A DNA stretch of 64,000 bases, taken from the NCBI RefSeq assembly GCF_004803755.1, contig NZ_CP032311.1, forward strand, positions 2,744,501 through 2,808,500, given 5' to 3'. This stretch comes from Pseudomonas sp. DG56-2 (lineage in GTDB: Bacteria; Pseudomonadota; Gammaproteobacteria; Pseudomonadales; Pseudomonadaceae). The notes under the pieces were generated by a model that ran no database searches, was not told where the DNA came from, and saw only the letters and a list, made by a program, of their open reading frames with translations. The first letter of the stretch is position 1. Every line of letters begins with the position of its first letter. The position numbers and the translations under genes were made by a program. Below, piece after piece: positions 12,192-39,016 of this stretch.

Positions 12192-13487
12192 TCATACGAA
12201 GCGTTCAAACCGATACGGCGCCGGATCGATGATTGGCTGATTGCCTGAGACGATATCCGCCGCCAGTTGCCCCGCTGCTGGCGAGGTGCCGAAGCCGTGG
12301 CCCGAAAAACCGGTGGCTAATGTCAGCCCTGGGATCTTGGCGACCGGCCCGATCACGGGGATCGAGTCCGGGGTAACGTCGATAGTGCCCGCCCAGGCTT
12401 GCTCGATCTGCGCGTGTTCAAAGATCGGCCAAGCGGCTTTGAGGTTGTTCATCGCATCATTGTTCAGCGACAGATTGGCTTTAGGGTCCTGCACCCTGAC
12501 GCGCTCGAACGGTGAAACGTTCGCCGCCTTCCAGCGCCGTGCCAGGGCAAGGTCCTTGAAGAACGGCTTTCCGAACGAGATCTCCAGATAATCGCGCTGG
12601 GCACGAAACGCCGGCAAGTAACGTGTGCCCAGCAACAAGTGATCCAGGGTCAGGAAAGCATCGAGCTTGCCGCGCTGGGTAATGATGAAGCCACCGTCTT
12701 TGTGCTTGCGGAACGAGAAGTCTGGCGCACCGACGGCGATATCGGTTGGCCCCTCCATCGGCTTGGTGCGCAGCACCGAGCACACCAACGGCAAGGTCGG
12801 TAGCTCAACCCCGTGGTTACCTAAAAAGCGGCGCGACCAGGCACCGCCTGCGAGCAATACTTGGTCACAGCTGATCTCGCCTTTCTCGGTTACCACACCG
12901 CTGACCTTGCCAGCGGCAGTCACCAGCGTGCGCACGGCACACTGTTCAAAAATCAGGGCCCCTTTAGCCATTGCCGCTTTGGCAATTGCACTGGAGGCCA
13001 ATGTTGGCTCGGCACGGCCGTCGGAAGGCGTGTAAATGCCGCCCGCCCAGTTGCCTTTGCCGCCTGGTACCAGGGTTTCGATTTCGCGCTTGCTGAGCAA
13101 GTGCGAGTCAAGCTCCAGCGCACTAACCGACTTCAACCAGCCTTCATGCATGGCCATTTGAGTTTCGTTGCGGCCAACGAACATGATGCCCGCCTGGCGG
13201 TAACCAACATCGGCACCGACCCGCTCCGGCATTTGCGCCCACAAACGATCCGAGGCCTGCGCCAAAGGAATATCTTCGGCGTGGCGGCTGGTTTTACGCA
13301 CCCAGCCTAAGTTGCGCGAAGATTGCTCTCCCGCCAGACGGCCTTTTTCCAGGACAACCACTGGAATGTTGCGCTCAGCCAGTGCTAATGCAGCGGTCAA
13401 ACCAATGATGCCACCGCCGATAATCACAACTGACGTGGACGAAGGAAACTCGCTTGAAGTGTGCACTGAGGCAATAGTAGGTGCCAT
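12192..13487 (-). CDS. FAD-dependent amine/amino-acid oxidoreductase (DadA/DAO family)
   Basis: A 431-residue flavoprotein of the D-amino-acid oxidase superfamily, which oxidises a C-N bond to an imine and hence an aldehyde or keto acid. The FAD-binding loop GGGIIGLTAALALAER lies near residue 22, followed by the acidic VLEKG. The second FAD segment GHGFGTSPAAGQLAADIV is near the C-terminus. The N-terminal SSRNLGWVRKT is typical of FAD oxidases of this group. The next genes upstream on the same strand encode a RidA-like protein and an ornithine-cyclodeaminase-like protein. I recall that Pseudomonas tyramine-oxidase (tyn) loci combine such subunits, so an arylethylamine oxidase is my preferred role; a D-amino-acid dehydrogenase is the alternative. 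Confidence 0.75.
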   Translation of the reverse strand: MAPTIASVHTSSEFPSSTSVVIIGGGIIGLTAALALAERNIPVVVLEKGRLAGEQSSRNLGWVRKTSRHAEDIPLAQASDRLWAQMPERVGADVGYRQAGIMFVGRNETQMAMHEGWLKSVSALELDSHLLSKREIETLVPGGKGNWAGGIYTPSDGRAEPTLASSAIAKAAMAKGALIFEQCAVRTLVTAAGKVSGVVTEKGEISCDQVLLAGGAWSRRFLGNHGVELPTLPLVCSVLRTKPMEGPTDIAVGAPDFSFRKHKDGGFIITQRGKLDAFLTLDHLLLGTRYLPAFRAQRDYLEISFGKPFFKDLALARRWKAANVSPFERVRVQDPKANLSLNNDAMNNLKAAWPIFEHAQIEQAWAGTIDVTPDSIPVIGPVAKIPGLTLATGFSGHGFGTSPAAGQLAADIVSGNQPIIDPAPYRFERFV

Positions 13488-13549
13488 GACAAAGACTCGA
13501 CTAACGCTGTTTAAGACAAGGTATGCGGGAGAGCACTCGTATCCATCTG

Positions 13550-13972
13550 CTATTTCGCTAGATTGATTTCCACTACATTGGCACGTGATGCATTGCGGTA
13601 GGCAGTAACTTCCAACTCGACTTTGTAAACCGTGGAACCCAACGGTGGGCACGTCACGGTGCTGGCCGGGTTGATTCCCTTGAACTTTTCGCCTATCAGG
13701 GTCATGACCGTCGCCACGTCTGCAGGATCTTGAATAAACACACGCGAGCAGATCACGTCGGCGAGGCTGGAATCCACAGCCTTGAGCGCCGCTTCGATGT
13801 TGTTGAACACCTGACGAGTCTGTTCAACCACGTCTTCGGAGATCAGCTTGGTTTCGGGGTGTCGACCTGCGGTGTTAGACACGTAGATCCAGTTATCGAC
13901 TGCGACCAGGCGCGAATAACTGCCCATTTCTTCGTACTTGGAGCCGGTTTTAACCTTGATGATTTCGGTCAT
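13550..13972 (-). CDS. RidA/YjgF-like protein lacking the key arginine
   Basis: A 140-residue Rid-family protein. Classic RidA is a cytoplasmic trimer that hydrolyses reactive imines and enamines left by PLP or flavin enzymes. The fold is clear from DNWIYVSNTAGRHP, VEQTRQVFNNIEAALKAVDSS, and ELEVTAYR near the end. In RidA an arginine follows P-A in the active-site strand (P-A-R-S). Here the equivalent stretch reads NPASTVTCPPLG, so by eye the arginine is missing. That would argue against simple imine deaminase activity and for a subunit or accessory role. It lies between the FAD oxidase and the cyclodeaminase-like gene, all in one direction. Confidence 0.8.
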   Translation of the reverse strand: MTEIIKVKTGSKYEEMGSYSRLVAVDNWIYVSNTAGRHPETKLISEDVVEQTRQVFNNIEAALKAVDSSLADVICSRVFIQDPADVATVMTLIGEKFKGINPASTVTCPPLGSTVYKVELEVTAYRNASRANVVEINLAK

Positions 13973-14004
13973 GCGTCATACCTCTTCAATTCACTAAAAC
14001 TGTA

Positions 14005-15144
14005 TTAGCTAAGTACTGGGGTTTCCCACAAATTCAACTTGACGCCAATACCTTTTGCGATGGCATTGCGGTACACAACTGTGCCCCAGGCAACGTCTTC
14101 AACCGGCATACCGCCTACCGACATAATGATGATTTCTTTATCATTTTTACGGCCTGGCGCTTCGCCGACAATAATCTTACCGATGTCTTCAAGTTCGTCA
14201 GCGGTTAACTTTCCTTCCGCCAACATATCCATGAAGCGCACGCCAATAACAGGCACACAGTTATGCGCAGGTTTTGGCAATTCTTCGAACCAGGCGTGAT
14301 AAAGACCGGTGTTATCGAGCACTTTGCGGATATCCGGTAGTTCCATTCCTTCATCCAGACGGCAACTTGCAGGCATGGCCATGAAGGCACCTGGCTTGAC
14401 CCATTCGCGTTTGACTTCTGGATAAGCCAACGGGTCGCCCGTTGCACCAGAACTGCAGTAAGTGACCAGATCAGAGTCCCGCACTACTTCTTCCAGGGTT
14501 TGCACAACATGGATGTTAACGATTTGTGGGTACGTTTCTTCAACCCACGAAATAAAGTCGTTAAGGCTTTTTTCTCCACGTCCTTTAATCTTGATGGTAT
14601 CAATCAGTGGGCACACGGCAATAAAGGCTGCCAGGGTGGTTTTACCCATGACGCCTGGGCCCAACAGGCCGACTACCTTGGAGTCTTTACGGGCCAAATG
14701 GCGAGCGCCAACCCCCGGAATTGCCCCGGTACGGTAGGCCGAAAGCAAGTTTGCCGACATATGCGCAAGCGGCGCACCGGTGTCCGGATCATTAAGAGTG
14801 AACATCAGAATCGAGCGGGGCAGGCCTTTTTCGCGGTTAGCGATGTTTGAGCCGTACCACTTGACGCCTGCGGTGCAAAAATTACCGCCTAAATAGGCAG
14901 GCATGGCCATCAAACGACGATCAGCGGTCGGTTTTGGCATCTTCGGAAATGGCGAGCTTTCAGGGAAAGTGACCATTGCGCCGTGCGAGTCATTATTAGG
15001 TCCGGCCATACGATAGTCGCCTTCGTATAGCAAACCAAACATCTCTTCCATTGTATCGACACAGCCGGCCATATCGGTTACACCGGCGCGGATCATGTCT
15101 TGCTCAGAAAGGTAGATAAAATCAATATTTGTATTATTAGACAT
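14005..15144 (-). CDS. Ornithine cyclodeaminase/mu-crystallin family protein (TynB-like)
   Basis: A 379-residue NAD(P)-binding protein of the ornithine cyclodeaminase/mu-crystallin family. Seen are the substrate-side lysine region AGVKWYGSN (about residue 90) and the Rossmann loop GLLGPGVMGKTTL (about residue 160). A long C-terminal part follows that ordinary Ocd enzymes (about 310-350) lack. Larger members of this type have been named tyramine oxidase subunit B; I use that only as a lead. It probably heads the operon with the RidA-like and FAD oxidase genes, 32 bp and 62 bp apart. The ATG at 15144 follows GAGAAA. A divergent AraC gene lies 216 bp away and may control it. Confidence 0.75.
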   Translation of the reverse strand: MSNNTNIDFIYLSEQDMIRAGVTDMAGCVDTMEEMFGLLYEGDYRMAGPNNDSHGAMVTFPESSPFPKMPKPTADRRLMAMPAYLGGNFCTAGVKWYGSNIANREKGLPRSILMFTLNDPDTGAPLAHMSANLLSAYRTGAIPGVGARHLARKDSKVVGLLGPGVMGKTTLAAFIAVCPLIDTIKIKGRGEKSLNDFISWVEETYPQIVNIHVVQTLEEVVRDSDLVTYCSSGATGDPLAYPEVKREWVKPGAFMAMPASCRLDEGMELPDIRKVLDNTGLYHAWFEELPKPAHNCVPVIGVRFMDMLAEGKLTADELEDIGKIIVGEAPGRKNDKEIIIMSVGGMPVEDVAWGTVVYRNAIAKGIGVKLNLWETPVLS

Positions 15145-15360
15145 AATTTTTCTCAGACTGAAATGATACAATTCCGAGAAAGCGCACGGACACGCCCTCC
15201 CCTCAGGTTTTCCAACCTGGTTGCTCCTTCAACATAAGGGTTAAGTATACGGAGCCCATTATCTGGGTATTGTATATTTCGGACATGAGCGAACGGCCTG
15301 TCATATTTTTATGGTACGGCCATTGCATAACAATAAGATCGTTTGTGGTAGGTCCACTGT

Positions 15361-16239
15361 ATGAAAAAAGCGCATAGCCAAACAGTTGCTTTAAATACCT
15401 TTGAGCAGCCGTGGTTCGTATTGAATTCCTCTCACTATTCGGCAATAGCGTCCGTTCATCCGGCTATTTCTCATTTCTATTCATTGGATATTGCGCAGTC
15501 GAGCAATCTAATGTTTGCCGTGCCCGATGGCTGCGTGGATATAGTCGTCGATTGCGACAGTACCCGCCCCACTGCCCGCGTGTGTGGCACGCCGTTGGAA
15601 GCCAGGCAGGTGGAACTGCTGGAAAACCATCATTATTTCGGCGTGCGTTTTACCCCAGGGGTCATCCCTGGGTTTATCAATGCGCTGGCGCAAGAACTGA
15701 CAGAACAGGAGTTGAACCTGCTGGACGTGACCCCGCGGGCGCAGGGCTTTTTCGACGAAGTGATAAACACTGAGTTGCTCAGCGAACAAATCGACGCCTT
15801 CAACCGGTTTTTGGTACCCGATGCGTTGTGCAAGACATCCGTATTGACCGCCTCGGTCATTCGCACGGTGTTGCAACACAAGGGTGATATCCGTATTCAG
15901 CAACTGGAAGAATTGAGCGGCTACACCACCCGCACCATTCATCGCCAATTCAGCCAGGACACCGGGATGACGCCCAAAGCGTTCTGCCGAATCATTCGCT
16001 GCCAAGCGGCGCTGAACGCCATCAACAGTGAAGAAGACCTTTCATTTTCGGAACTGGCGATGGAGCTTGGATTTACCGATCAATCGCATTTTTTGCGTGA
16101 TTTCAAAAAGCTGGTCAGTACTACGCCCCATGTCTATCAACAGCGCATCACGCAAGGGGCGTATAACCAACGGATCATGCAGTCCCGTCATTCGTCGCCG
16201 GCAAGATCAGCTCCCACTGGGTTCGATTGCAGCCACTAG
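15361..16239 (+). CDS. AraC-family regulator with N-terminal DUF6597-like domain
   Basis: A 292-residue regulator. The N-terminal two thirds resemble the sensing domain found on many AraC proteins (MFAVPDGCVDIVVD, HHYFGVRFTPGVIPG). The C-terminal double helix-turn-helix begins near residue 185 and shows LEELSGYTTRTIHRQFSQDTG and LAMELGFTDQSHFLRDFKKL. It is divergent from the cyclodeaminase/RidA/FAD oxidase operon and is its most likely activator. The last 15 or so residues (from SSPARSAPTG) are encoded by a REP-like palindrome, so the C-terminal tail is probably not conserved. Confidence 0.85.
   Translation: MKKAHSQTVALNTFEQPWFVLNSSHYSAIASVHPAISHFYSLDIAQSSNLMFAVPDGCVDIVVDCDSTRPTARVCGTPLEARQVELLENHHYFGVRFTPGVIPGFINALAQELTEQELNLLDVTPRAQGFFDEVINTELLSEQIDAFNRFLVPDALCKTSVLTASVIRTVLQHKGDIRIQQLEELSGYTTRTIHRQFSQDTGMTPKAFCRIIRCQAALNAINSEEDLSFSELAMELGFTDQSHFLRDFKKLVSTTPHVYQQRITQGAYNQRIMQSRHSSPARSAPTGFDCSH
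16188..16222 (-). repeat. REP-like element overlapping a coding 3' end
   Basis: Read on the minus strand it begins GTGGGAGCTGATCTTGCCGG, which closely matches the Pseudomonas REP consensus (GTGGGAGC-GGCTTGC). It lies inside the last 50 bases of the AraC gene and supplies that protein's final residues. Confidence 0.6.
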
Positions 16240-16273: not shown

Positions 16274-17209
16274 TCAATGACGGGGTGTGTCAGATGGGTG
16301 CTCGCCAAACAGCATTTTGTAATACCCGGAAAAATGCCCCAAATGGGTGAAGCCGAAATCACTGGCAATCCTTGCTACGGTCACCTCATTGGCGCAGGTC
16401 ATGCGCAGTCGCCGACGCGCCGCGTTGAGCCTTACCGAGCGCAAGTACTCAACCGGACGCAAGCCGGTCACACTTTGAAAACTGCGTTGTAGCGTGCGCC
16501 GACTGACGTTCAGTCGTTCGCACAACTCCAACACTGAAATAGGCTCATCGTTATAGGCCAAGGCCATTTCCTGACTTTGCTTGACCAGATAGGCGCTAAC
16601 CACATGATTGCCCGCACGCCCTTCTTCGCATTCAACCCGGTGGTCGAGCAAATCGAGCATGCACTCCAGGGTTAGATCTTCCAGCAAGTTTTCCGGCAGC
16701 GCATCGTTTTGCAGTGCAGCGGTGACCACATCCTCAAGTCGCTTACGCACGGTTTGCAGCACTTGCTTGCGCAATTCCAAACGCGAAACCCGCGCCAGAC
16801 GGCGCATTTCACTGTCTGAAAATTCTCTGGCAGCCAGGTTTTCCAGACGAGAGGCTTCCACGGTGATCGCCAACAGGTCCATCCCATCGGCCGCCTGCAC
16901 GAAAAACTCCTGACCACTGTGAAGAAGCGTGACACTTTCGGTTCCCAGGCTTTTGCCCTGAAACACGGCCGGCTCCCCGGAACACATGGCCATCGCCAGG
17001 CACAGTCGGCCCGGCGGCGCCAAGCCGCGCTGGACTACACGCTTATTCAACGACTCCTGAAATATCTGAAAGCGCTCTCCGGTCACGTGCTTGAGCACCG
17101 TTTGCACCGGTCCCGTGCTCAATTGATCGTAGGTTTGTTGCCAACCCACGATCGCACCAGCGTGCAAATGGACATCGTCAAAGCTTTTCATTTGGGCAAA
17201 CATCGCCAT
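16274..17209 (-). CDS. AraC-family regulator (EutR-like)
   Basis: A 311-residue AraC-type regulator. The DNA-binding part starts near residue 215 with ISVLELCERLNVSRRTLQRS, FQSVTGLRPVEYLRSVRLN and IASDFGFTHLGHFSGYYKML, the arrangement seen in EutR-type activators. The N-terminal 200 residues would bind the effector. It is last in a same-strand series of aldehyde dehydrogenase, permease and porin genes, and so probably regulates them in response to their substrate, perhaps an amine. The ATG at 17209 is chosen because AGGTG lies six bases upstream; a GTG three codons earlier is also possible. Confidence 0.83.
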   Translation of the reverse strand: MAMFAQMKSFDDVHLHAGAIVGWQQTYDQLSTGPVQTVLKHVTGERFQIFQESLNKRVVQRGLAPPGRLCLAMAMCSGEPAVFQGKSLGTESVTLLHSGQEFFVQAADGMDLLAITVEASRLENLAAREFSDSEMRRLARVSRLELRKQVLQTVRKRLEDVVTAALQNDALPENLLEDLTLECMLDLLDHRVECEEGRAGNHVVSAYLVKQSQEMALAYNDEPISVLELCERLNVSRRTLQRSFQSVTGLRPVEYLRSVRLNAARRRLRMTCANEVTVARIASDFGFTHLGHFSGYYKMLFGEHPSDTPRH

Positions 17210-17294
17210 CGGTAACACCTGTTATTGACCTGTAACAGAATGTAAGCAAGCTGCAGGCCAACACAGATGACCCAGCGCTGCCGCCCATCTATAT

Positions 17295-18611
17295 TTAGAA
17301 CGGCACCGCGACGGTCAGTTGGCTGTAGACGTTGGTACCGTTGCCATTGGACTGGTTGCCGCCGGTGCCCAGCGCACGATCTGGCTGATACAGACCCACC
17401 AGAGGGGTGATGATCAGGTTTGGCGAAACCACCCATTCGGCGTACAGATCGAGTTCGTCAGCATCCTGGTTCAGCTGGTCGCGACCACCAATGGTGTTGA
17501 AGTTGAAATACAGCACACCCAGGGTCAGGGTTTCGATCGGGTTGACCTTGAGAGCCAGGTGCTTGATTTCGGTATTGCTGTTGAACGGGCCGGCATAGTT
17601 GGCCGCCACTTCACCCTGGAACCAGGTGCCGTAGCCGGTGCTGTAGCCGGTGAACAGTGGGTCCCAGTTCTGCGAGTAACGGGTGTAGCGCGCAGTCAGG
17701 CTTGGGGTCCAGAACACATCGGCAAAGCGGTAGCCTGCTTCGGCGTACCAGCCGGTTTCTTTGTCGCCCTTGGCGTCTTCAACTGCGTATTCGAAGGCGA
17801 AGTTGGCGTTTTCAATCCCGGCGTTGCCATCGCCACGGATGCTGTAGACATCCATGCCGTCGCGGCGCTGCTGGAACTCACTGGCCCACTGATCGACCAC
17901 GTCCAGGCCGTGGATGTAGGTCAGGCCAAGCGTGCCGATGTCCTGGGTGTATTCCAGGGTACCGACTGCAAGCTCGGTTTCGGCTTGTGCACGGTTGTCC
18001 GATTTGAGCCAGGCGGCGCTGCCGTGCAGGCCTTCGCTGCCGCCCAAACGAACCACTGCGGTGCAATCAAAGGAGTGACGCGCACCCAAGTAGTACGCAC
18101 CACCCCGGTTTAATTGGCCGTCTGCTAGGCCCTTGCCCAGGTTCGGGCCATCATCGTTGATCAAGAAGCCTTGGCCGGCCTTGAAGATCTGGCGCCCGAA
18201 AGACAGATCGACGCCATCTTTGCCCAGCGCCGAGAACACATCTCCCGAACGCCAGCCGAGCGATGCATCTTCGATCTTGGTGGTGCGCTCGCTGCCATCG
18301 GTGAAACCTCCGGCGTCGCCATCGCCCCAGGTGCCGGAAGACACCAGACCAAAGGCGCCATAGGCGGTGCCCGCAGTGCCCAGTGCGGTATCTGCCTTGA
18401 CGCCGTATTTGATGAAGCCTTCTTGCCAGTGCGAACCGCCCTCGGTTCCATCATAGTTTTTACGGCTATTGAACAGGCCGTAGGCTGCCAGACCTTCGAA
18501 GCTGACGTGGGTGTCCGGGGTGTCGATCAGCGGGATGGCCTGAGCATTTTGACAAACAGCGGACACAGCAATACTTGCGGCGATGCCGCACAAAGCGAAG
18601 CGCGAAGACAT
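17295..18611 (-). CDS. Outer-membrane porin, alginate-export (AlgE-like) family
   Basis: A 438-residue outer-membrane beta-barrel. The signal peptide ends near residue 26 at QNAQA-IPL. The mature part has alternating aromatic and polar strands, many Gly/Asp turns, and a C-terminal phenylalanine (TVAVPF) as the barrel-assembly signal. HVSFEGLAAYGLF and the DDGPNLGKGLADGQL region suggest the alginate-export-like porin family used for small-molecule uptake. It lies between an APC permease and an AraC regulator in the same direction, so it probably admits the compound carried by that permease. It is not an OprD-type porin like the one at 51568-52824. Confidence 0.78.
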   Translation of the reverse strand: MSSRFALCGIAASIAVSAVCQNAQAIPLIDTPDTHVSFEGLAAYGLFNSRKNYDGTEGGSHWQEGFIKYGVKADTALGTAGTAYGAFGLVSSGTWGDGDAGGFTDGSERTTKIEDASLGWRSGDVFSALGKDGVDLSFGRQIFKAGQGFLINDDGPNLGKGLADGQLNRGGAYYLGARHSFDCTAVVRLGGSEGLHGSAAWLKSDNRAQAETELAVGTLEYTQDIGTLGLTYIHGLDVVDQWASEFQQRRDGMDVYSIRGDGNAGIENANFAFEYAVEDAKGDKETGWYAEAGYRFADVFWTPSLTARYTRYSQNWDPLFTGYSTGYGTWFQGEVAANYAGPFNSNTEIKHLALKVNPIETLTLGVLYFNFNTIGGRDQLNQDADELDLYAEWVVSPNLIITPLVGLYQPDRALGTGGNQSNGNGTNVYSQLTVAVPF

Positions 18612-18743: not shown

Positions 18744-20192
18744 TCAGGCGGCGTTGTTGCCCAGGCCGCTGAACCTCAAGGGCGCCGTGCTGCGCAAGCG
18801 TGCAGCCAAGAGGATGCCCGCCAGTGCGGCAATCGGCACCACGGTGCACAGTGCCAGCGACATGGTGGTGCTCGCCCCGGTCAGCACATCGAAGTGGATG
18901 ATCGCGGTGATCAGCACCGCCAGCAGCGCCACACCCGAGAGCGCTGGCAAAATGAAGCACTTGAGCCTGCTGTCGGCCAGCTGCGGGTTGGCCTTGAAGA
19001 AGCCGATGACCGCAAGCGAGGTCAGCACCATCAACAGGATCAGGCACAGGGTGGCGACGTTGGAGAACCAGGAGAACAGTTGCAGCACCGGGTCTGCACC
19101 TGCCAGGGCAAACACCGCCAGGATGCTGGCCGCGATCAGCGACTGCAGGCCGGACCCCAGGTGCGGGCTTTGGTGTTTTCTGTGGGTAGTACCGAGTTTC
19201 TCCGGCAGCAAACCATCGCGGCCAATGGCGAAGAAATAGCGTGCAGCGGCGTTGTGGAAGGCCAACAGCCCGGCAAACATACTGGCCACGAAGAGGATGC
19301 GGATGGTGCCCGTCAAGGCAGGGCCTACATAGTGATCAGACAGCGAGTACAGGAACGTGGTCGGATCTTGCAGGGACTGCAGCGCTGACACGATGTCATT
19401 AGCGCCTGCGCCCACCACCATGGCCCACAGCGACAGGGTGTAGAAACCGCCAATCAACAGGACCGATAGGTAGGTAGCAAGCGGGATAGTGCGCTTGGCA
19501 TTCTTGGCTTCTTCACTATACAGCGTTGTCGCCTCAAAACCGATGAAGGCTGCGAAGCAGAACAACAGGCCAATGGACGGGTTGCCGCTGGTGACATGGG
19601 TCGGGGTGAAGGAGTCGAGGTTAACGCCATGGGCGCCGCCGCTGCTCAGAATCGCCACATCGAGAATGATCATTGCAATGTATTCGGCGATCACGGTGAT
19701 CGACAGCACGCGAGCCGACAGGTCAATGTTGCGGTAGCCAAGGCAGGCAATCAGGCCCAGCGCTGTGGCCGAACACAACCACCATGGCACCTGGATGCCG
19801 AACACTTCTGCCAGGCTCCCGGCGACGATGGCGCCGAACAAGCCGTACATGCCCGCTTGCAGAATGTTGTAGGCAACCATGGCCAACACCCCTGCCGCGC
19901 CGCCCGCCATGCCACCCAAGCCACGGGAGATCAACGCGTAGAAGCCTCCAGCGTGGGTGATGTGGCTGGCCATACGGGTGTAGCCCGCCGCGAAGCACAA
20001 CAACACAAGCAGAGTAAGGATCAGTAAAGCAGGCGTACCCGCGCCATTGCCAAGCATGATGCCGATGGGGAAACCGCCGGCCAATACGCTGAGCGGGCTT
20101 GCCGCTGACAACACAAAGAAGATGATCATGGCAACACCTAGGCTGCCACGCCGCAGTTCCTTCGAGGAACTATCGCGCAGGGATTCGCTCAT
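18744..20192 (-). CDS. APC-superfamily permease
   Basis: A 482-residue inner-membrane transporter of the amino acid-polyamine-organocation superfamily with about 12 hydrophobic segments. The first helix holds the family loop VLSAASPLSVLAGGFPIGI. Conserved helix 3 reads GGFYALISRGLGGMAGGAAG, and GFEATTLYSEEAKNAKRTIP is the typical helix 6 and loop. Members with this E-E-A signature import amino acids or amines. The ATG at 20192 follows AAGGTA. It stands between an aldehyde dehydrogenase and a porin on the same strand, so uptake of an amine or indolic acid for the local pathway is likely but not proven. Confidence 0.85.
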   Translation of the reverse strand: MSESLRDSSSKELRRGSLGVAMIIFFVLSAASPLSVLAGGFPIGIMLGNGAGTPALLILTLLVLLCFAAGYTRMASHITHAGGFYALISRGLGGMAGGAAGVLAMVAYNILQAGMYGLFGAIVAGSLAEVFGIQVPWWLCSATALGLIACLGYRNIDLSARVLSITVIAEYIAMIILDVAILSSGGAHGVNLDSFTPTHVTSGNPSIGLLFCFAAFIGFEATTLYSEEAKNAKRTIPLATYLSVLLIGGFYTLSLWAMVVGAGANDIVSALQSLQDPTTFLYSLSDHYVGPALTGTIRILFVASMFAGLLAFHNAAARYFFAIGRDGLLPEKLGTTHRKHQSPHLGSGLQSLIAASILAVFALAGADPVLQLFSWFSNVATLCLILLMVLTSLAVIGFFKANPQLADSRLKCFILPALSGVALLAVLITAIIHFDVLTGASTTMSLALCTVVPIAALAGILLAARLRSTAPLRFSGLGNNAA

Positions 20193-20471
20193 GTTTTTAT
20201 ACCTTATTTTATGAGGCAGTCTTTGCGGGGGTTGAAAGCCGCGTCGCTCTTGCACACAGAGCGGGCGGCGAATAATTGTTTTGGGCCTTCAGGTTAAGGT
20301 CGATGCTAGGCTGCGCGCCGCGTGGCGGCTATCCCAAATTGGCCGCATTTAGCCTTACAACAGGGGTTCGAACAACAATCGACGGAAGGTAATCGACCAA
20401 GCGGTGCGCACTGTGTCGGTGTTGAGAACCACTGTGATCTGGCGCCCTACCCGCTTGTCTTTCAATCTCAA

Positions 20472-28462: not shown

Positions 28463-28583
28463 GGTATCTCCTTGCCGGATCAAATTCCGGCAACACGGCG
28501 CCTGCGGCTGCAATAAGAATCGCAACTGTGGCGTTAATTTTTTAAATGCAGTGTTACTCAGTGCGCGGCGAAGTTGCCGTCAA

Positions 28584-28946: not shown

Positions 28947-28962
28947 GATAAGTTCTCGTTAA

Positions 28963-30547: not shown

Positions 30548-31480
30548 ATGCCTGCAAATGCCCTATCGGAACTGACCTTTCAGGACAGCCGTTTAAAGTA
30601 CCTCTACATCAGCCACCAGAGAGGCTCGATGCGCGCCGCAGCGGATGAATTCGGCGTAGCGGCCTCATCCATCAGCCGCCATATCGCCAAGCTTGAGCAG
30701 GAGCTGAACATCGAGTTGGTCAAGCAAGGTGCGCACCGCGTTGAGCTGACCGACGCAGGCAAGGTCGTGGTCGAGTACTACCAGACCCGCCTGGCGCACC
30801 AGCAGGACTTGTTCAGCAAGATGGACGATTTACGTGGCCAGCAGCAGAACTTAGCGGTCATAGCCGTGGGTGAAGGCTTACTGGACGCTCACGCGATCAG
30901 CAGCCTCAATCACTTTTTGCGCGAGCACAGAACGCTGCGCACCGAGATCATCAGTGCGCCTTCCTATGAAGTGCAGCGGATGGTTGCGCAAGACCAAGCG
31001 CACCTGGCGGTGATCTTCTCGCCGTGCCCGGCCGCTCAGTTTTCAAAGCTGTTCTCACTGGCGCAACCGTTGTGCCTGATCGTCGATCGCAATCACCCGC
31101 TGGCCGGACGTACACGCGTGAGCCTTGAAGACTTGAGCAAAACGTCGCTGATTCTGCCGGGCCCCAAGTTTCGCGTACGGGAACTGCTCGATCTGGCCTG
31201 TGCCAACATTGACTTGAAGATCGAGCCGGCCATTATCACCAACTCGCTGTCGGTGATTCTCGACTTTGTGCGCACTGGCGCCGGTGCGACCTTGCTACCC
31301 GAAAGGCCAGTGCGGGAGGAACTGAAATCCGGTGCACTCAGAGCTATCCCCATCGACTGTCCGCTTATGGAGCACACCGAGATACAGATCGTTACCCGCC
31401 GCTCACGACGCTTGCCCGAGGTCACTCAGGCGTTGGCACTGGCACTTGCCAAAGCCCTGCGTACTTCGCCGGTACGCTGA
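30548..31480 (+). CDS. LysR-family regulator beside iacA
   Basis: A 310-residue LysR-type regulator. The winged helix lies at about residues 8-70: LKYLYISHQRGSMRAAADEF, GVAASSISRHIAKLEQEL, and VELTDAGKVVVEYY. The effector domain has the usual IVDRNHPLAGRTRVSLEDL. It is divergent from iacA across a region that also has an IacR-type dyad, so the operon may be under dual control, by IacR and by this protein. The ATG at 30548 is chosen to fit the LysR N-terminus; an open frame from 30458 looks non-coding. Confidence 0.83.
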   Translation: MPANALSELTFQDSRLKYLYISHQRGSMRAAADEFGVAASSISRHIAKLEQELNIELVKQGAHRVELTDAGKVVVEYYQTRLAHQQDLFSKMDDLRGQQQNLAVIAVGEGLLDAHAISSLNHFLREHRTLRTEIISAPSYEVQRMVAQDQAHLAVIFSPCPAAQFSKLFSLAQPLCLIVDRNHPLAGRTRVSLEDLSKTSLILPGPKFRVRELLDLACANIDLKIEPAIITNSLSVILDFVRTGAGATLLPERPVREELKSGALRAIPIDCPLMEHTEIQIVTRRSRRLPEVTQALALALAKALRTSPVR

Positions 31481-31687: not shown

Positions 31688-32317
31688 ATGAGCCATCAAC
31701 TGTATGAGTTGATCCGTTTGACCCTGCGCGTTCGCACCCCGTCGCACGCCTTGCCCAAGCTGCAAGCCGCCCTCGGCCAAGCCCTTGAAGGCGTTGAATT
31801 GGTGGGCTGCTGGGTGTCTGAAATTGGCCCGCAGAACACCATTGCAGTTATGCGCAGCTTTGCCTCAAGCGAAATCAAGGACGCCGAACGCACGCGCCTG
31901 TTGCTCGCAGCCGATGGCCTGGGCATCGGCGAGTACCTGTTGCACCAGCACATTGACGACTATTGCAGGTTCCCATTTCTGCAGCCGCTGCCAGCGGGAG
32001 AGCACGGCCCTTTCTACGAACTGCGCGAGTACAACCTGGTGCCTTCTGGCCTTGAACCCACCTTGCAAGGTTGGGAAAAAGCCGTTGGTCCACGCACCGG
32101 CGATGACTACTCCCAGGTGTACGCCGCCTTCTATGCCACCAGTGGCCGCGTACCGCGCTACCTGCATATCTGGCCTTACTCAAGCCTGGAGCAGCGCCTC
32201 GACGTGCGTACACGCGCGGTCAAAAACGGCGTTTGGCCACCCGAAAACTCGGCACCGCAACTGCAAGAAATGAACTCAGTGGTGTACCTGCCCGCCGCGT
32301 TTTCTCCTCTTTGTTAA
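31688..32317 (+). CDS. NIPSNAP family protein
   Basis: A 209-residue protein made of two NIPSNAP-type ferredoxin-like halves. The first begins LYELIRLTLRVRTP; the second begins FYELREYNLVPSGLEPTLQG near residue 112 and continues RYLHIWPYSSLEQRLDVR, the hallmark W-x-Y-x-S/D-L-x-x-R pattern. Small NIPSNAP proteins often occur in catabolic clusters, sometimes as isomerases or structural partners, but I cannot assign a reaction. GAGG precedes the ATG. It lies nine bases before the chemoreceptor gene, so the two are probably co-transcribed. Confidence 0.78.
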   Translation: MSHQLYELIRLTLRVRTPSHALPKLQAALGQALEGVELVGCWVSEIGPQNTIAVMRSFASSEIKDAERTRLLLAADGLGIGEYLLHQHIDDYCRFPFLQPLPAGEHGPFYELREYNLVPSGLEPTLQGWEKAVGPRTGDDYSQVYAAFYATSGRVPRYLHIWPYSSLEQRLDVRTRAVKNGVWPPENSAPQLQEMNSVVYLPAAFSPLC

Positions 32318-32326
32318 GGCACCGCG

Positions 32327-34465
32327 ATGAAAAACAGCTTGAGCATCCAGAGCAAAATCATTTGGCTCGCCAGTTTGTGCCTGATTACCGTGGTCGGCCT
32401 GCTGGTCAGCTTGTCCTTGCAGCAAACCCGCACCAGCACCGAAAACGCCAAGGACTTTGCCAGCCAGATACTGGCGCAAGCCGCTCAACGTACCCTGCAA
32501 GACAAAGCCCAGATACAAGCCCTGCAAGTACAGAACGGATTCAACAGTGCCTATCAATTGGCTGCTGGGCTCGGACGCCAGGTGCTGTTTCTACGTGAGC
32601 GCGCACAATCAGGTGAGCAAGCCGTCGCCACGCGTCAATCGCTGAGCACCGAGCTGCGCAAGGCCGCTGAAGATCACCCGGAGGTCCTCGGACTGTTTTT
32701 GATCTTCCAACCCAACGCACTGGACGGCATCGACGCCGCGTTCAAAGGCAACACCGACCTTGGCAGCAACGATGCCGGACGCTTTGCCGTCTACTGGTTG
32801 CAACCCAACCCCGGCGTATTACAAGCGGTACCGGGCGACGAAAAGCTGCTGGCAGACACCTCGAAAGGCCCCAGCGGCGCGGCTTTCAACACTTTCTTTA
32901 CCTGCCCTGTCGAGAGCGCCAAATCCTGCCTTCTCGAACCGTACTTTGATGAATCCACCGGCACCAAGCGGTTGGTCACAAGCATTGCCCTGCCGCTGAT
33001 CGTCGAGGGCAAGGTCATTGCCGTCATCGGCCTGGACATCAACCTGCAAGTCCTGCAGAAGGATGCCCAGGCGCAAGCGCAAAGACTCTATGACGGACGA
33101 GCCGGTATCTCCATCATCAGCCCCTCCGGCGTGCTTGCCGCGCACACCGAGTCGCCTGCCCAATTGGGCAGCGCCCTGCAGCAGGTTATGCCGACACAAG
33201 CCGCGCAGATCCTCGCATTGCAGAATCAAAACCGTATTCAGGCGTTGGACAGTGCCGATCAAATGCAACTGCTGGCACCGATCCAACCCATCGCTGGAGC
33301 CGAGCCTTGGGGGGTGTTGGTCAATGTACCGCGCAGCATCCTGGTCGCCCCTGCCGAGTCGATGAAAAGCTGGATGGACGGCCAACGCTGGAAGTCGTCC
33401 GGAATTGAACTGTCGCTCGGTTTGACGGCAGCGTTGCTGGGCATTGTGATGATGTGGTTTGCCGCCAAAAGCATCACCCGCCCACTGCTGCGCGTCAGCG
33501 AAATGCTCGATGACATCGCCGAGGGTGAAGGTGACCTGACCAAACGCCTGTCCTATGCCAAGAGTGACGAACTCGGTCGCTTGGCCCGCGCCTTCAATCG
33601 CTTCCTCGACAAACTGCAACCGGTGATTGTCCAGGTGCAACAAACGCTGGGAGGGGCGCGCACCACTGCCAATCAATCGGCGCTGATCGCTGAACAAACC
33701 AGCATCGGCATGCAGCAGCAGTTCCGCGAGATCGATCTGGTGGCCACCGCACTGCACGAAATGACCGTGGCAGCGCAATCGTCGGCACAAAGTGCAGCCT
33801 ATGCCGCCGACGCCGCCCGCCGCGCCGATGAAGCGACCCAGGAGGGCTTGGCAGTGGTCTCCCTGACATCCGGCGCGATCCAAACCCAAGCCCACGCGAT
33901 GACTAGCGGCATGGCGCAGTTGCAGTCACTCGGAGACAGCAGCCAGCGAATCGGCTCGGTACTGGAAGTAATCCTGTCCATCGCCGGGCAAACCAACCTG
34001 CTGGCCCTCAATGCGGCCATCGAGGCGGCCCGCGCTGGCGAGGCAGGCCGCGGCTTTGCTGTGGTAGCTGATGAGGTACGTGGGTTGGCGCAACGCACCC
34101 AACACTCGGTGGAAGAAATCCGCCAGGTGATCCATGACCTGCAGGACGGCACCCGCGATGTCACCGAATCGATGCACGCCAACCATGAACTGGCCCAGCA
34201 GAACGTCGCGCAAGTGCAGCAAGCGGTACGCACCCTGGAGCAGATCGGCCAGGCGGTGAACGAAATCACCGATATGAACCTGCAGATCGCCAGTGCCGCT
34301 GAAGAGCAAAGCAGCGTTGCCGAAGAGATCAATCGTAACGTTCAGGCCATCCGCAATGTGACCGAATCGCTGTCTGGGCAGGCGGAGCAGTCGGCGCTGA
34401 TCAGCCAGCGGTTGACTGCGCAGGCGGATCATCAGCAAGTGCTGATTCAGCTGTTTAAGGCGTAA
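32327..34465 (+). CDS. Methyl-accepting chemotaxis protein
   Basis: A 712-residue chemoreceptor. It has a first membrane helix at about residues 10-30, a large periplasmic sensor (about 35-355, probably a double-Cache domain), and a second membrane helix near 365-385 (LSLGLTAALLGIVMMWFAAK). A HAMP linker follows (SITRPLLRVSEMLDDIAEGE), then a long cytoplasmic coiled coil. The signalling tip is unmistakable: AGQTNLLALNAAIEAARAGE and GRGFAVVADEVRGLAQRT. Its place between the iac and cat genes suggests it senses indole-3-acetate, a related compound or an aromatic acid. Chemotaxis to indole-3-acetate is reported in P. putida, as I recall. The ligand is inference. Confidence 0.93.
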   Translation: MKNSLSIQSKIIWLASLCLITVVGLLVSLSLQQTRTSTENAKDFASQILAQAAQRTLQDKAQIQALQVQNGFNSAYQLAAGLGRQVLFLRERAQSGEQAVATRQSLSTELRKAAEDHPEVLGLFLIFQPNALDGIDAAFKGNTDLGSNDAGRFAVYWLQPNPGVLQAVPGDEKLLADTSKGPSGAAFNTFFTCPVESAKSCLLEPYFDESTGTKRLVTSIALPLIVEGKVIAVIGLDINLQVLQKDAQAQAQRLYDGRAGISIISPSGVLAAHTESPAQLGSALQQVMPTQAAQILALQNQNRIQALDSADQMQLLAPIQPIAGAEPWGVLVNVPRSILVAPAESMKSWMDGQRWKSSGIELSLGLTAALLGIVMMWFAAKSITRPLLRVSEMLDDIAEGEGDLTKRLSYAKSDELGRLARAFNRFLDKLQPVIVQVQQTLGGARTTANQSALIAEQTSIGMQQQFREIDLVATALHEMTVAAQSSAQSAAYAADAARRADEATQEGLAVVSLTSGAIQTQAHAMTSGMAQLQSLGDSSQRIGSVLEVILSIAGQTNLLALNAAIEAARAGEAGRGFAVVADEVRGLAQRTQHSVEEIRQVIHDLQDGTRDVTESMHANHELAQQNVAQVQQAVRTLEQIGQAVNEITDMNLQIASAAEEQSSVAEEINRNVQAIRNVTESLSGQAEQSALISQRLTAQADHQQVLIQLFKA

Positions 34466-34606: not shown

Positions 34607-35461
34607 ATGCCGCAGATTCTAGCGAACAAGATCGCCATCATCACCGGTGCCAGCCGAGGCATCGGTGCCGCGATCGCCAAGCGCTTTGCCGCCGAAGGCG
34701 CTCGGGTTGTGATTACTGCCCGTACCGGCGAGCCAGGCGGCAGGCTACCCGGCTCATTGCAGGAAACCGCCGATTACATCTGCAGCCGGGGTGGAAAATG
34801 CTTGAGCATCACCGGCGATCTATCCAAGGAAGAAGACCGCGAACGCATCATGGCGCAAACGCTCGAGCACTGGGGTGGTGTCGACATTCTGGTCAATAAC
34901 GCAGCCTTTGCACGCTTCGCCCCAACCCAGGAGCAGCGGGCCAGGCATGTGCAGCTGTCGCTGGGAATCAACTTCATTGCACCGCTGCACCTGAGCCAAC
35001 TGGCTGTACCAGTGATGGTTGAACGCGGTGGCGGCTGGATCCTCAATCTGTCCAGTGCAACTTCACAGCGACCTGGTTGTGGCCCTTACTACAGCGATGA
35101 CCGCGCCTACCGTTTCCATAACACCGCCTCGCCAAGCCTGTACGGCGCCACCAAGGCGGCGTTGGAACGTTTGACAGCAGGCTGGGCCATGGAACTGGCC
35201 AGCCAGTCGATTGCCATCAATAGCCTCGCACCGGTCGAAGCGGTGGCCAGTGAAGGTGCGCTCGACACTGGCAGCATCGATGATCAGGCGATATTCGAGC
35301 CGATCGAAGCGATGGCCGAAGCCGCCCTGGCGCTCTGCTCAGGCCCCCGCCAGTCGCTGACCGGGCGTAATGCCTGCAGCCTGCCATTGCTGGAGGAACT
35401 AGGACTAAGCGTGCGCGCCCTGGATGGCCGGAGCGAACTCGCCCCACAGGCTAATCAATGA
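34607..35461 (+). CDS. Short-chain dehydrogenase/reductase
   Basis: A 284-residue SDR enzyme with cofactor loop TGASRGIGAAIAKRF, NNAAF near residue 100, serine in NLSSATSQRPG, and Y-x3-K as LYGATKAALERL near residue 185. A 20-residue insertion (YYSDDRAYRFHNTAS) precedes the catalytic tyrosine, which is unusual. The R in VVITARTGE suggests NADP(H). It stands alone between the chemoreceptor and the convergent cat operon, with a ribosome-binding GGAGAG seven bases before the ATG. Its substrate is not evident. Confidence 0.82.
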   Translation: MPQILANKIAIITGASRGIGAAIAKRFAAEGARVVITARTGEPGGRLPGSLQETADYICSRGGKCLSITGDLSKEEDRERIMAQTLEHWGGVDILVNNAAFARFAPTQEQRARHVQLSLGINFIAPLHLSQLAVPVMVERGGGWILNLSSATSQRPGCGPYYSDDRAYRFHNTASPSLYGATKAALERLTAGWAMELASQSIAINSLAPVEAVASEGALDTGSIDDQAIFEPIEAMAEAALALCSGPRQSLTGRNACSLPLLEELGLSVRALDGRSELAPQANQ

Positions 35462-35602: not shown

Positions 35603-36538
35603 TCAGGCTTTTTGCAAGGCGCGTGGACGCTGGCTGCGTTCACCTGCGGTTTTATCCACTGCGGCCTGAAGCTGGAAGCTGAATTGCAGATCGGCAAAGT
35701 ACGTTGCTTCCAGGCCGCGGTTTTTAGCCGCTTGTGCGTCGTCGATGAAGTTCAGTTGGCCAATCAGCCCGTCACGTGTGGCGTAGGCAAAGTCGTCCCA
35801 GAGGTATTGGTCACCCTCAAAGTTGATTTGCGTGGTCAGGTGACGATAACCAGGCGCCGAGATGAAGAAGTGAATATGCGCCGGGCGCTGGCCATGACGG
35901 CCCAGGTGGTTGAGCACTTCTTGCGTGGTGCCTGTCGGTGGGCAGCCGTAGCCGCACGGTACGATGCTGCGTACGCGGTAGCTACCTTGGGCATCGGTGA
36001 GGATGCGCCGGCGCAGGTTGTATTCGGACTGACTTGGGTCGAAGTACGAATAAGTACCCTTGGTGCTGGCATGCCACACGTCTACCGTAGCGCCCGGAAC
36101 CGGCTGCCCTTCGGCGTCTACCACACGACCGTGCAGGTACATCGCGGTGCCAGGGTCGGTACCGTCATCCATGCGCGCCTCGCCCTCGGTCAACGGGGCC
36201 CCAGCTACGTACAGCGGGCCTTCGATAGTGCGCGGGGTGCCGCCACTGAGCCCGGCCTGGGCATCCTTGGCATCTTGCAGCAAGTCCAGAAAGTGCTCTA
36301 TTCCCAGGCCTGCGACCAGCAATCCGGCTTCCTGGTTACTGCCCATGCGGTTGAGGTAGTCCACCGCTTTCCAGAACTCGTCGTCGGTGATTTCAAGGTC
36401 TTCGATCAGTTTGGCGCTGTCTTGCAGTACACGCAGGATGATTTGCTTGAAGCGTTTGCTGCCCTGGTCGTTATCAATACCGGATACTTCTTTGAAGAAG
36501 TTTTGAACATCAGCGGTGTGTGAGATTTTCACTGTCAT
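35603..36538 (-). CDS. catA: Catechol 1,2-dioxygenase
   Basis: A 311-residue intradiol dioxygenase, the family's usual length, that cleaves catechol to cis,cis-muconate with a non-haem ferric centre. An N-terminal helical dimer domain (about 1-95) is followed by the catalytic beta domain. Iron ligands are visible as the tyrosine of GTYSYFDPSQSEYNLRRRI and the histidines of GQRPAHIHFFISAPGY. The start at 36538 follows AGGTGA; a GTG three codons earlier is unlikely. It is the last gene of catBCA and would accept the catechol produced by the nearby Iac enzymes. Confidence 0.95.
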   Translation of the reverse strand: MTVKISHTADVQNFFKEVSGIDNDQGSKRFKQIILRVLQDSAKLIEDLEITDDEFWKAVDYLNRMGSNQEAGLLVAGLGIEHFLDLLQDAKDAQAGLSGGTPRTIEGPLYVAGAPLTEGEARMDDGTDPGTAMYLHGRVVDAEGQPVPGATVDVWHASTKGTYSYFDPSQSEYNLRRRILTDAQGSYRVRSIVPCGYGCPPTGTTQEVLNHLGRHGQRPAHIHFFISAPGYRHLTTQINFEGDQYLWDDFAYATRDGLIGQLNFIDDAQAAKNRGLEATYFADLQFSFQLQAAVDKTAGERSQRPRALQKA

Positions 36539-36573
36539 TGTTATCACCTGTTATTTATTGTTTTAGCAACGGT

Positions 36574-36864
36574 TCAGCGATCGTCAGCGTGAATGGAAGA
36601 CGGATGACGGCACAGGCCGTCAATCTCGATGTTCATGTACGGGAACAATGGCAACTGCGTTAACGTGTCATGCAATGCTTCAACACTGGGTAGATCAAAT
36701 ACGCTGTAGTTGGCGTAGTGCCCGGCAATACGCCACAGGTGGCGCCAGGTGCCTTCTTGTTGCAGGCGCAGGGCCAATTCCTTTTCATCGGCCTTGAGTT
36801 TGGCAGCGGTGTCCGGGGCCATATCGGTGGGCAGTTTTACCGTCATCTTTACGTGAAAAAGCAT
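36574..36864 (-). CDS. catC: Muconolactone delta-isomerase
   Basis: A 96-residue muconolactone isomerase, exactly the size of known CatC. It converts muconolactone to beta-ketoadipate enol-lactone as a decamer of ferredoxin-like subunits. The family pattern is clear: LFHVKMTVKLPTDM at the N-terminus, ADEKELALRLQQEGTWRHLW, and a final PYMNIEIDGLCRHPSS. It lies 15 bp after catB and 35 bp before catA. Confidence 0.96.
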   Translation of the reverse strand: MLFHVKMTVKLPTDMAPDTAAKLKADEKELALRLQQEGTWRHLWRIAGHYANYSVFDLPSVEALHDTLTQLPLFPYMNIEIDGLCRHPSSIHADDR

Positions 36865-36879: not shown

Positions 36880-38001
36880 TCAGCGGCGAACGAAGCGCGC
36901 CACGCGCTCTTCATCCAAAGTCAGGCCCAAGCCCGGGGTGCGCGGTACATGCAGGTGGAAATCGCGATACAGCGGCGCTTCAGTGACGATTTCTTCGGTG
37001 AGCAACAACGGGCCAAAGAGCTCGGTGCCCCAGGTCAGTTGGTTCAACGTGATAAAGGCATGGGCCGAGGCCAGCGTGGCAACGCTGCCTTCGAGCATGG
37101 TGCCGCCGTACAGGGCGATGCCTGCGGCTTCGGCGATATGCGCGGTGCGCAACACGGCACGTGGCCCGCCGTTTTTGGCGATTTTCAAGGCGAAGATGCT
37201 GGCCGCGCCGTCGATGGCGAGGCTCAGCGCGTCCTCAACGCATTCGATGGATTCATCGGCCATGATCGGTGCCGGGCTGACGCGACTAAGGTGCACCTGC
37301 CCTGCTCTGTTGTTGCGTGAGATCGGTTGTTCGATCAAATCGATGCCGTTATCGCCGAGCACCCGGCAAGCACGTACTGCCTGAGATATGTTCCAGTACT
37401 GGTTGACGTCGACCCGCACGCTGGCGCGCTCGCCCAAGGCCTTTTTGATCGCAATGACATGAGCCAGATCGATGTCGACCGGGTTGGCGCCAATCTTCAG
37501 CTTGAAGATGCGATGACGACGCAGGTCGAGCATCTGCTCGGCTTCGGCAATGTCGCGGGCGGTGTCGCCAGAGGCCAACGTCCAAGCCACTTCGAGACTG
37601 TCACGCACACGGCCGCCGAGCAGTTCGCTGACCGGCAACCCAAGCCGCTTGCCTTGAGCGTCGAGCAACGCGCTTTCGATACCCGACTTGGCGAAGGTAT
37701 TGCCCTTGGCGAGTTTGTCCAGTTTGAGCATGGCCGCATTGATGTTGTCTGCCGGCATGCCGACCAATGCCGGAGCTAGGTGTGCATCGATGTTGGTCTT
37801 GATGCTTTCCGGGCTTTCGTAGCCGTACGCCAGTCCGCCAATGGTGGTGGATTCACCAATGCCTTCGACCCCATCACTGCAGCGCAAACGCAGGATTACC
37901 AGGGTTTGCTGCTGCATGGTATGCATCGCCAGCTTGTGCGGGCGGATGGTCGGCAGGTCGACGATCAAAGCGTCAAGGCTTTCGATTATGGCGTTTGTCA
38001 T
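36880..38001 (-). CDS. catB: Muconate cycloisomerase
   Basis: A 373-residue enolase-superfamily enzyme that cyclises cis,cis-muconate to muconolactone. The acid-base lysines are in FKLKIGANP (K-x-K) near residue 168 and ALKIAKNGG near 275. Metal ligands lie in VRVDVNQYW, DLIEQPI and IMADESIE. The N-terminus TIRPHKLAMHTMQQQTLVI is typical of CatB. First gene of catBCA, divergent from catR, which would activate it when muconate accumulates. Confidence 0.95.
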   Translation of the reverse strand: MTNAIIESLDALIVDLPTIRPHKLAMHTMQQQTLVILRLRCSDGVEGIGESTTIGGLAYGYESPESIKTNIDAHLAPALVGMPADNINAAMLKLDKLAKGNTFAKSGIESALLDAQGKRLGLPVSELLGGRVRDSLEVAWTLASGDTARDIAEAEQMLDLRRHRIFKLKIGANPVDIDLAHVIAIKKALGERASVRVDVNQYWNISQAVRACRVLGDNGIDLIEQPISRNNRAGQVHLSRVSPAPIMADESIECVEDALSLAIDGAASIFALKIAKNGGPRAVLRTAHIAEAAGIALYGGTMLEGSVATLASAHAFITLNQLTWGTELFGPLLLTEEIVTEAPLYRDFHLHVPRTPGLGLTLDEERVARFVRR

Positions 38002-38058
38002 TGTTCGAGTGTCCCGTCAATTGAGGCGCAGCTGGCTAGCTTAATACAATATATTTCA

Positions 38059-38072
38059 CTTGATTATTCAAG
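38059..38072. promoter_or_regulatory. Candidate CatR-binding dyad
   Basis: CTTGA-TTAT-TCAAG, a perfect dyad of the LysR-box type, sits in the 136-bp gap between divergent catB and catR, about 60-70 bases upstream of each start. Its place suits a CatR activation site, but no known CatR consensus was compared. Confidence 0.4.
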
Positions 38073-38137
38073 CATTGCACGAGAACCTGACCGGCGTCCA
38101 ATATCAAAAAAATCTGCCACCATACCCAGGAGGTCTG

Positions 38138-39016
38138 ATGGAGCTTCGCCACCTTCGCTACTTCACGGTTTTGGCCGAAACCCTTAATTTCACCCGCGCC
38201 GCCGAACTTCTTCACATGGCTCAGCCGCCTCTGAGTCGACAGATCAGTCAACTGGAGGAACAAGTGGGGACGTTGTTGGTAGAGCGCGAACGGCCGCTAC
38301 GTCTGACCGAAGCCGGGCGCTATTTGTACGAGCACACCTGCACCCTGCTTGGGCAACTGCAAACCATCAGCGATAACACCCGGCGCATTGGCGAACGCAA
38401 GCGCCAATGGCTGGGGATAGGCTTTGCGCCGTCCACGTTATATGCCGATTTGCCTGAGCTGATTCGTGCGCTGCGCAGCGACGAGGGCCTGGAATTGGGG
38501 CTGAGCGAGATGACCACCGTGCAACAGGTAGAGGCGCTGAAAAGCGGTCGGATCGACATCGCTTTTGGCCGTATTCGCATTGACGACCCAGCGATCTATC
38601 AGCAGGTACTGCGTGAAGATCCCCTAGTGGCGGTGCTTCCAAGTGGCCATGCGTTGGCAGGCAAGGCTCTAGCGCTGGAACAACTGGCTAAAGAGCCCTT
38701 CGTCCTTTACCCGGCCAACCCGCGGCCTAGCTACGCCGACCACGTACTGGCCTTGTTTGCGCAACATGGCATGAGCATCAAGGTCAGTCAGTGGGCCAAT
38801 GAGTTGCAGACGGCGATCGGGCTGGTAGCGGCAGGCCTGGGGGTTACCTTGGTACCCTCCTCGGTTCAGCAGCACCGCACCGGGGTCGAATACGCCGCCC
38901 TGCTCGACCCCAGTGCTGTCAGCCCGATTATCCTCAGTCGCCGCACCGGTGATGTCAGCCCGATTGTTCAGCGCTGCTTGGCACTGGTGGAGCGAGAATC
39001 CAGCGCCTCCAGTTGA
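38138..39016 (+). CDS. catR: CatR, LysR-family activator
   Basis: A 292-residue LysR regulator of the CatR/BenM group: MELRHLRYFTVLAETLNFTR, MAQPPLSRQISQLEEQVG and RPLRLTEAGRYLYEH form the N-terminal winged helix. The effector domain has GIGFAPSTLYADLPELIRAL and ends SAVSPIILSRRTGDVSP, as in members that sense cis,cis-muconate. It is divergent from catBCA, the conserved layout. AGGAGG precedes the ATG at 38138 by about five bases, which decides the start over an in-frame alternative at 38060. Confidence 0.92.
   Translation: MELRHLRYFTVLAETLNFTRAAELLHMAQPPLSRQISQLEEQVGTLLVERERPLRLTEAGRYLYEHTCTLLGQLQTISDNTRRIGERKRQWLGIGFAPSTLYADLPELIRALRSDEGLELGLSEMTTVQQVEALKSGRIDIAFGRIRIDDPAIYQQVLREDPLVAVLPSGHALAGKALALEQLAKEPFVLYPANPRPSYADHVLALFAQHGMSIKVSQWANELQTAIGLVAAGLGVTLVPSSVQQHRTGVEYAALLDPSAVSPIILSRRTGDVSPIVQRCLALVERESSASS

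Follow-up and report, generated by a model that had tools for sequence, protein, structure and literature searches.

The tyn, iac, and cat genes of Pseudomonas sp. DG56-2

The present analysis concerns a stretch of 64,000 nucleotides (nt) of Pseudomonas sp. DG56-2 (NZ_CP032311.1, positions 2,744,501-2,808,500), hereafter called the window, in which genes of an amine-oxidizing system (tyn) adjoin the iac genes attributed to the conversion of indole-3-acetate (IAA) into catechol, with cat genes farther downstream. With some reserve, the window is considered likely to encode a two-part unit leading from an arylethylamine, preferably tryptamine, to catechol. The host genome is represented by one contig of 5.82 Mb; among named relatives, TynB comparison places it closest to strains of Pseudomonas alkylphenolica (96%). 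Genes were named from open reading frame (ORF) calls, profile matches (NCBIfam/TIGRFAM, Pfam), and comparison with PDB structures; these uphold an initial annotation that had listed a set of oxidase-type genes directly beside iacIH-R-GFEDCBA.

Three minus-strand genes separated by gaps of 32 and 62 bp form one run: TynB, an ornithine-cyclodeaminase-like protein named 'tyramine oxidase subunit B' (14005-15171, probable start at 15144), a RidA-like imine hydrolase (13550-13972; PF01042, with TIGR00004 below its cut-off), and a candidate FAD-dependent amine oxidase of the DAO fold (12192-13487; PF01266, 238 bits). TynB scores 722 bits against NF004848 (cut-off 362) and is the sole copy over the cut-off in the host genome. 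The FAD oxidase was initially read from a frame start at 13652; its fold was recovered, and an internal ATG at 13487 replaces that start as the likely one, giving 431 amino acids, compared with a median of 432 among relatives. At 80 named TynB loci, viewed with flanks of up to 10 kb, a relative of the FAD oxidase is present at 79 and one of RidA at 77. Since 77 of the 80 hold both partners, the tyn triad is regarded as a conserved unit. Two ORF clusters near tyn (c6 and c10) were rejected as genes, both lying antisense over TynB, and a PF01593 search of the host genome returned five matches at four places, none of them within the window.

Divergently from the triad, an AraC-family regulator is encoded on the plus strand (15361-16239, profile match), with relatives at 49 of the 80 named TynB loci. 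Beyond it lies a minus-strand run consisting of iacH (amidase-like, profile match, 22495-23649), iacI (SnoaL-like, PF13577, 21974-22498), an aldehyde dehydrogenase (ALDH; 20472-21959) that is a candidate indole-3-acetaldehyde dehydrogenase, an amino acid/amine permease of the APC type (18744-20255; PF13520, 98 bits), a secreted barrel-like protein (17295-18611), and a second AraC-family regulator (16274-17218; profile match, EutR/AndR-like but below cut-offs), a relative of which occurs at 25 of the 80 loci. The successive gaps in this run measure -4, 14, 216, 132, and 76 bp, in agreement with the initial annotation, which had placed the ALDH 14 bp past iacI on the same strand. The barrel-like protein had been called a porin; its translation has a secreted, barrel-like look, and the label of putative porin is given by this appearance, as no NCBIfam, Pfam, or PDB match was found. 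Relatives of this protein recur next to some stand-alone tyn loci and some iac loci.

On the opposite flank of iacH, iacR (MarR family, profile match, 23732-24328, plus strand) is followed by iacG, F, E, D, C, B, and A (24424-30135, minus strand), which were named by profile matches and recur as the same genes in the genus genomes compared. The cluster thus comprises iacA to iacI and iacR in the order iacABCDEFG-R-HI of P. putida 1290. Next come four plus-strand genes, encoding a LysR regulator (30458-31480, profile match), a NIPSNAP-domain protein (31688-32317; PF07978, 108 bits), a chemoreceptor with HAMP and MCP signal domains and a PDC-like sensor (32327-34465, Pfam match), and a short-chain dehydrogenase (34607-35461, Pfam match). 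The minus-strand genes catA (35603-36547; TIGR02439, 474 bits, over cut-off), catC (36574-36864; 96 amino acids, named by place and frame only), and catB (36880-38001; TIGR02534, 510 bits, over cut-off) are bordered by a divergent catR-like LysR regulator gene (38060-39016, plus strand; BenM/CatM-like, below cut-offs). The cat genes, initially said to follow iac, are indeed present downstream but do not abut it, since iacA and catA are 5,467 bp apart with four genes between them.

Recurrence of the tyn-iac linkage and a candidate IacR operator

In a genus sample of 398 genomes, 79 contained a match to IacA that reached the set limit, and those 52 with at least 72% identity were counted as iacA genomes. 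The remaining 27 were rejected as iac-bearing owing to a clear gap below 72%; they form a separate IacA-like group of 53-57% identity (e.g. genomes G273, G231, and G171). TynB exceeded its cut-off in 47 of the 398 genomes, namely in 24 of the 52 iacA genomes versus 23 of the 346 remaining ones (Fisher p 6e-12, not corrected for descent). Both genes are neighbors in 15 of the 24 genomes holding both. Fourteen of these carry them within 25 kb on one contig, and in the fifteenth, G314, contig C17 begins within iac and bears tyn. Uniform placement in 6 Mb, likewise ignoring descent, would lead to 0.2 of the 24 genomes within 25 kb, against the 15 seen. About seven tyn-iac gene orders were counted by eye from locus maps of the linked genomes. 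With regard to gene order in other iac-bearing genomes, which the initial annotation had named as a check, the oxidase and iac clusters are hence not separate in all relatives. In a TynB tree of 105 rows, 22 of them linked, the 'linked' label needs 15 changes, 7 of which are forced by starred branches; because shuffled labels need 20.2 on average, linked TynB copies also cluster by descent. At the named TynB loci, two or more iac genes are found at seven of the 80 (L009-L012, L015, L050, and L082), and weaker iac-like genes occur at those of Ciceribacter (L085) and Halomonas (L086).

Two further arrangements were noted. Loci L211 and L217 (genomes G187 and G334) carry divergent iac genes directly beside a divergent tyn triad and give no IacA match at the limit; IacC is 87-88% identical (two copies in L211), IacH and IacI 46-47%, and the sole trace of IacA is a match of 35 residues in L211. 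Four genomes (G003, G322, G384, and G079) possess two TynB copies apiece, one next to iac and one elsewhere, and such paralogue pairs are suited to specificity comparisons.

The gap between iacH and iacR contains a 30-base sequence (23682-23711, plus strand) in which 26 of 30 positions fit a palindrome. It is identical at 25 of 30 positions to a second copy upstream of iacA (30302-30331, plus strand), while 60 shuffles of both gaps reached at most 22. Its core was found, with no more than two mismatches, upstream of iacA or in the iacH-iacR gap in all 21 genomes scanned out of the 52 iacA genomes, these genomes being related and the search pattern being derived from the window; it was also found at L009, L010, and L050. 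This conserved palindrome is a candidate IacR operator. The catB-catR gap of the window holds a third exact core match. In the tyn part of the window, no operator-like site was detected at two mismatches or fewer, and the two matches with three mismatches lie inside an AraC gene and are at chance level. Given a candidate operator between iacH and iacR and none in the tyn part, the ALDH gene is probably read with iacHI and induced together with them via IacR, and the amine genes would be under the AraC proteins.

A related palindrome was observed in the catB-catR gap (window positions 38055-38070, CTTGAATAATCAAG) and, in the form CTTGAATATTCAAG, at L181 (about position 355), L227 (about 476), and L135 (about 16062), beside the genes of a tryptophylquinone (TTQ) amine dehydrogenase in G244 and G264 and upstream of an ALDH gene in G384. 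These sites are possibly recognized by a shared regulator.

The aldehyde dehydrogenase and the amine dehydrogenases beside iac

The best profile of the window's ALDH is StyD (NF045735), against which it scores 524 bits, under the cut-off of 850, and its best PDB match is a phenylacetaldehyde dehydrogenase (4o5h). A tree was built with 33 relatives sharing at least 52% identity across 75% of the length. In it, a single branch, supported at 100/100, divides 21 rows on the window's side from 12 on the other. On the window's side, 20 of the 21 ALDHs have iac genes at a distance of 16 kb or less, accompanied by tyn, by the TTQ dehydrogenase, or by neither; the remaining row is that of Halomonas L086, with an iacF-like gene 19 kb away. 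The opposite side comprises stand-alone tyn ALDHs in 11 of 12 cases, the exception being the iac-adjacent one of G361. As G003, G322, G244, and G264 each harbor one ALDH of either side, species history alone is insufficient to explain the split. The initial annotation had counted the ALDH as a member of the oxidase module. This assignment is not borne out, since the tree groups it with iac-adjacent ALDHs rather than with stand-alone tyn ones, and judged by this grouping the enzyme belongs with iac.

For the neighborhood of iac, 47 of the 52 iacA genomes were read, G207, G210, G330, G366, and G368 being left out. An ALDH of at least 50% identity is found near iac in 12 of the 15 tyn-linked versus 4 of the 32 unlinked genomes, a comparison in which longer stretches were read for the linked ones. 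After the flanks had been widened for 25 of the unlinked genomes, the latter count rises to 8 of 32 (Fisher p 0.0006, descent ignored).

Amine dehydrogenases unrelated to the window's enzyme adjoin iac in four other genomes, and both types were looked for within the window and not found there. The first is a quinohemoprotein amine dehydrogenase (QHNDH, qhp). G284, with an IacA of 94% identity and no TynB over the cut-off, bears its genes beside iac, QhpG being 4.4 kb and the structural genes as much as 15 kb from iacI; all scores exceed their cut-offs (QH_alpha 688 bits, gamma 165, maturase 788, and QhpG 572). In G088, tyn and quinohemoprotein genes share one neighborhood with iac; the set is accompanied by a StyD-like ALDH. 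The tyn block was considered as a clean insertion relative to G284, which was rejected as other genes occupy that place in G284. The second type, a TTQ enzyme as in aromatic amine dehydrogenase (aau) and methylamine dehydrogenase (mau) systems, is encoded by BEDA genes beside iac in G244 (P. putida 1290) and G264, together with an ALDH of the window's type, which in the G244 assembly is spread over two reading frames. MauD scores above its cut-off, and both chains score below the methylamine dehydrogenase cut-offs. In PDB, the heavy chain scores higher with aromatic amine dehydrogenase (155 bits) than with methylamine dehydrogenase (132), and the light chain is about equally close, slightly closer to one methylamine dehydrogenase. 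Among the 47 iacA genomes read, with flanks of unequal length, each system was seen next to iac in two.

Across the genus, it appears an evenly balanced proposition that iac clusters are modular arylethylamine-to-catechol catabolons, in which iac is accompanied by its own clade of indole-3-acetaldehyde dehydrogenases and unrelated enzymes (FAD-dependent TynAB, quinohemoprotein, and TTQ aromatic amine dehydrogenase) have provided the amine-oxidizing front end on three occasions or more. Many 'auxin degraders' would then be tryptamine degraders.

A putative route from tryptamine to catechol and its alternatives

From the gene content we infer the substrate, the individual reactions, and the regulation of the proposed unit as follows. 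The first part (FAD oxidase, RidA, and TynB, with the permease, the barrel-like protein, and the AraC regulators) would take up an arylethylamine, most likely tryptamine, with tyramine or phenethylamine perhaps as side substrates. The FAD oxidase would form an imine, to be hydrolyzed by RidA or water to the aldehyde. In the second part, the ALDH, IacHI, and IacABCDEFG would convert indole-3-acetaldehyde via IAA to catechol, the ring of which would be opened by catABC. The amine part would thus represent an exchangeable front end under AraC control. IacA of Caballeronia glathei is reported not to oxidize tryptamine (PMC7225977), so that the amine would need both proposed steps, oxidase and ALDH. 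Another source places the tryptamine-to-IAA conversion of P. putida among biosynthetic routes (PMC3056050).

The candidate tryptamine-to-beta-ketoadipate catabolon of the initial annotation gains support from the linkage, the ALDH clade, the candidate operator, the amine dehydrogenases beside iac elsewhere, and the lack of PaaA in the host genome, but it is unproven, and a number of observations weigh against it. The NF004848 family is named for tyramine. Nine of the 24 genomes holding iacA and TynB display no linkage: G044, G307, and G244 (480 kb) have both genes on a single contig at a great distance from each other, only a lesser TynB copy is located on the iac contig of G133, at a distance of 205 kb, and separate contigs carry them in G001, G146, G180, G264, and G288, where linkage is not wholly excluded. 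Among the linked genomes, TynB is truncated in G388, it stands without adjoining RidA and oxidase in G079, as also at L050, and no ALDH is nearby in G016, G079, and G154. Two other genomes in an order sample of 283 (G521 and G630) hold both genes, in one case 705 kb apart and in the other on separate contigs, and in a phylum sample of 299 genomes no genome except the host holds both. Moreover, the tyn part carries no site resembling the candidate operator, as described above, and PaaA is present in 3 of 9 other linked genomes examined (G088, G322, and G384).

A rival reading is a generic tyramine/phenethylamine module that shares a genomic island with iac by happenstance, brought there by the horizontal transfer of plant-associated catabolic genes and delivering its product to other routes. 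In its favor, besides the family name of TynB, a clear iac set is lacking in view at 73 of the 80 named TynB loci, or at 71 when those of Ciceribacter and Halomonas are taken as linked, and the iac genes of P. putida 1290 are located on a predicted genomic island together with various genes for plant compounds (PMC6624763). Such an origin is possible, although rather unlikely, as the linkage recurs in different gene orders, the ALDH falls into the iac-adjacent clade and is placed behind iacHI, and three unrelated amine-oxidizing systems lie beside iac. In addition, a profile search for PaaA (TIGR02156), which matched in 5 of 19 genomes searched, gave no match in the host genome, so that phenethylamine would be without a phenylacetyl-CoA exit there. 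With regard to a 4-hydroxyphenylacetate exit and the 3,4-dihydroxyphenylacetate route of the P. putida U tyramine catabolon, the HpaD profile TIGR02295 was absent from all 19 genomes; it represents one HpaD type, unsuited to Pseudomonas, and its absence excludes little. The second HpaD type is LigB-like.

It seems improbable that the ALDH serves iac alone, acting on indole-3-acetaldehyde from outside or from indole-3-pyruvate, with the adjoining tyn triad unrelated. Five iac-adjacent ALDHs of the clade carry neither a tyn nor an aau tag, no TynB was found in three of their genomes (G098, G142, and G355), and growth of P. putida 1290 on indole-3-acetaldehyde is cited in PMC7225977; the enrichment of ALDH near iac in tyn-linked genomes argues against this reading. 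Very improbable is an aromatic amino acid or N-methylated amine as the substrate of the oxidase in place of an arylethylamine. Among solved structures, the FAD protein comes closest to L-amino acid deaminases (5fjm with 261 bits), which also speaks against the tryptamine route, but its partner belongs to the TynB family. An amino acid as the starting compound would, furthermore, require an indole-3-pyruvate decarboxylase before the ALDH, and none was found among the window ORFs scanned, which are a subset of those in the window and do not cover the genome.

The systems named iac, tyn, qhp, and aau are known. What is likely new is the union of iac and tyn into a probable arylethylamine-to-catechol unit with exchangeable front ends. 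A literature search, mostly without subscription journals, retrieved no title or abstract joining tryptamine catabolism with iac, and absence from print is not claimed. In P. putida U, a tyramine/dopamine tyn set, reportedly that of Arcos et al. from 2010, is said to comprise an FAD oxidase, RidA, TynB, an ALDH, a permease, a porin-like protein, and an AraC regulator. In contrast to it, tyn of the window is joined to iac, and the window's ALDH falls on the other side of the tree than stand-alone tyn ALDHs. For P. putida 1290, iac has been described with cat genes and a chemoreceptor, and methylamine and phenylacetaldehyde genes are mentioned for its iac island (PMC6624763); the latter probably correspond to the TTQ dehydrogenase and ALDH genes beside iac in G244. 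Strain 1290 resembles the window in iac content and order, in the LysR gene, the chemoreceptor, and nearby catR-catBCA (PMC6624763), as well as in having beside iac an amine-oxidizing set and an ALDH from the window's side of the tree. It differs in that its front end is the TTQ amine dehydrogenase, with its own tyn genes about 480 kb away.

Bacterial iac genes have so far been read as auxin sinks. If iac often constitutes the lower half of a tryptamine route, plant selection may act through the amine and not the hormone. IAA would then be an intracellular intermediate, and the trait would escape screens that test growth only on IAA.

In scans of the window, no tRNA was found, and promoter and terminator searches performed no better than on shuffled sequences. 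Apart from the loci discussed, an ORF at 44994-45956 on the minus strand combines an acetyltransferase domain with subsequent Rnk_N and GreA/GreB C-terminal domains, representing either a fusion or an unusual frame.

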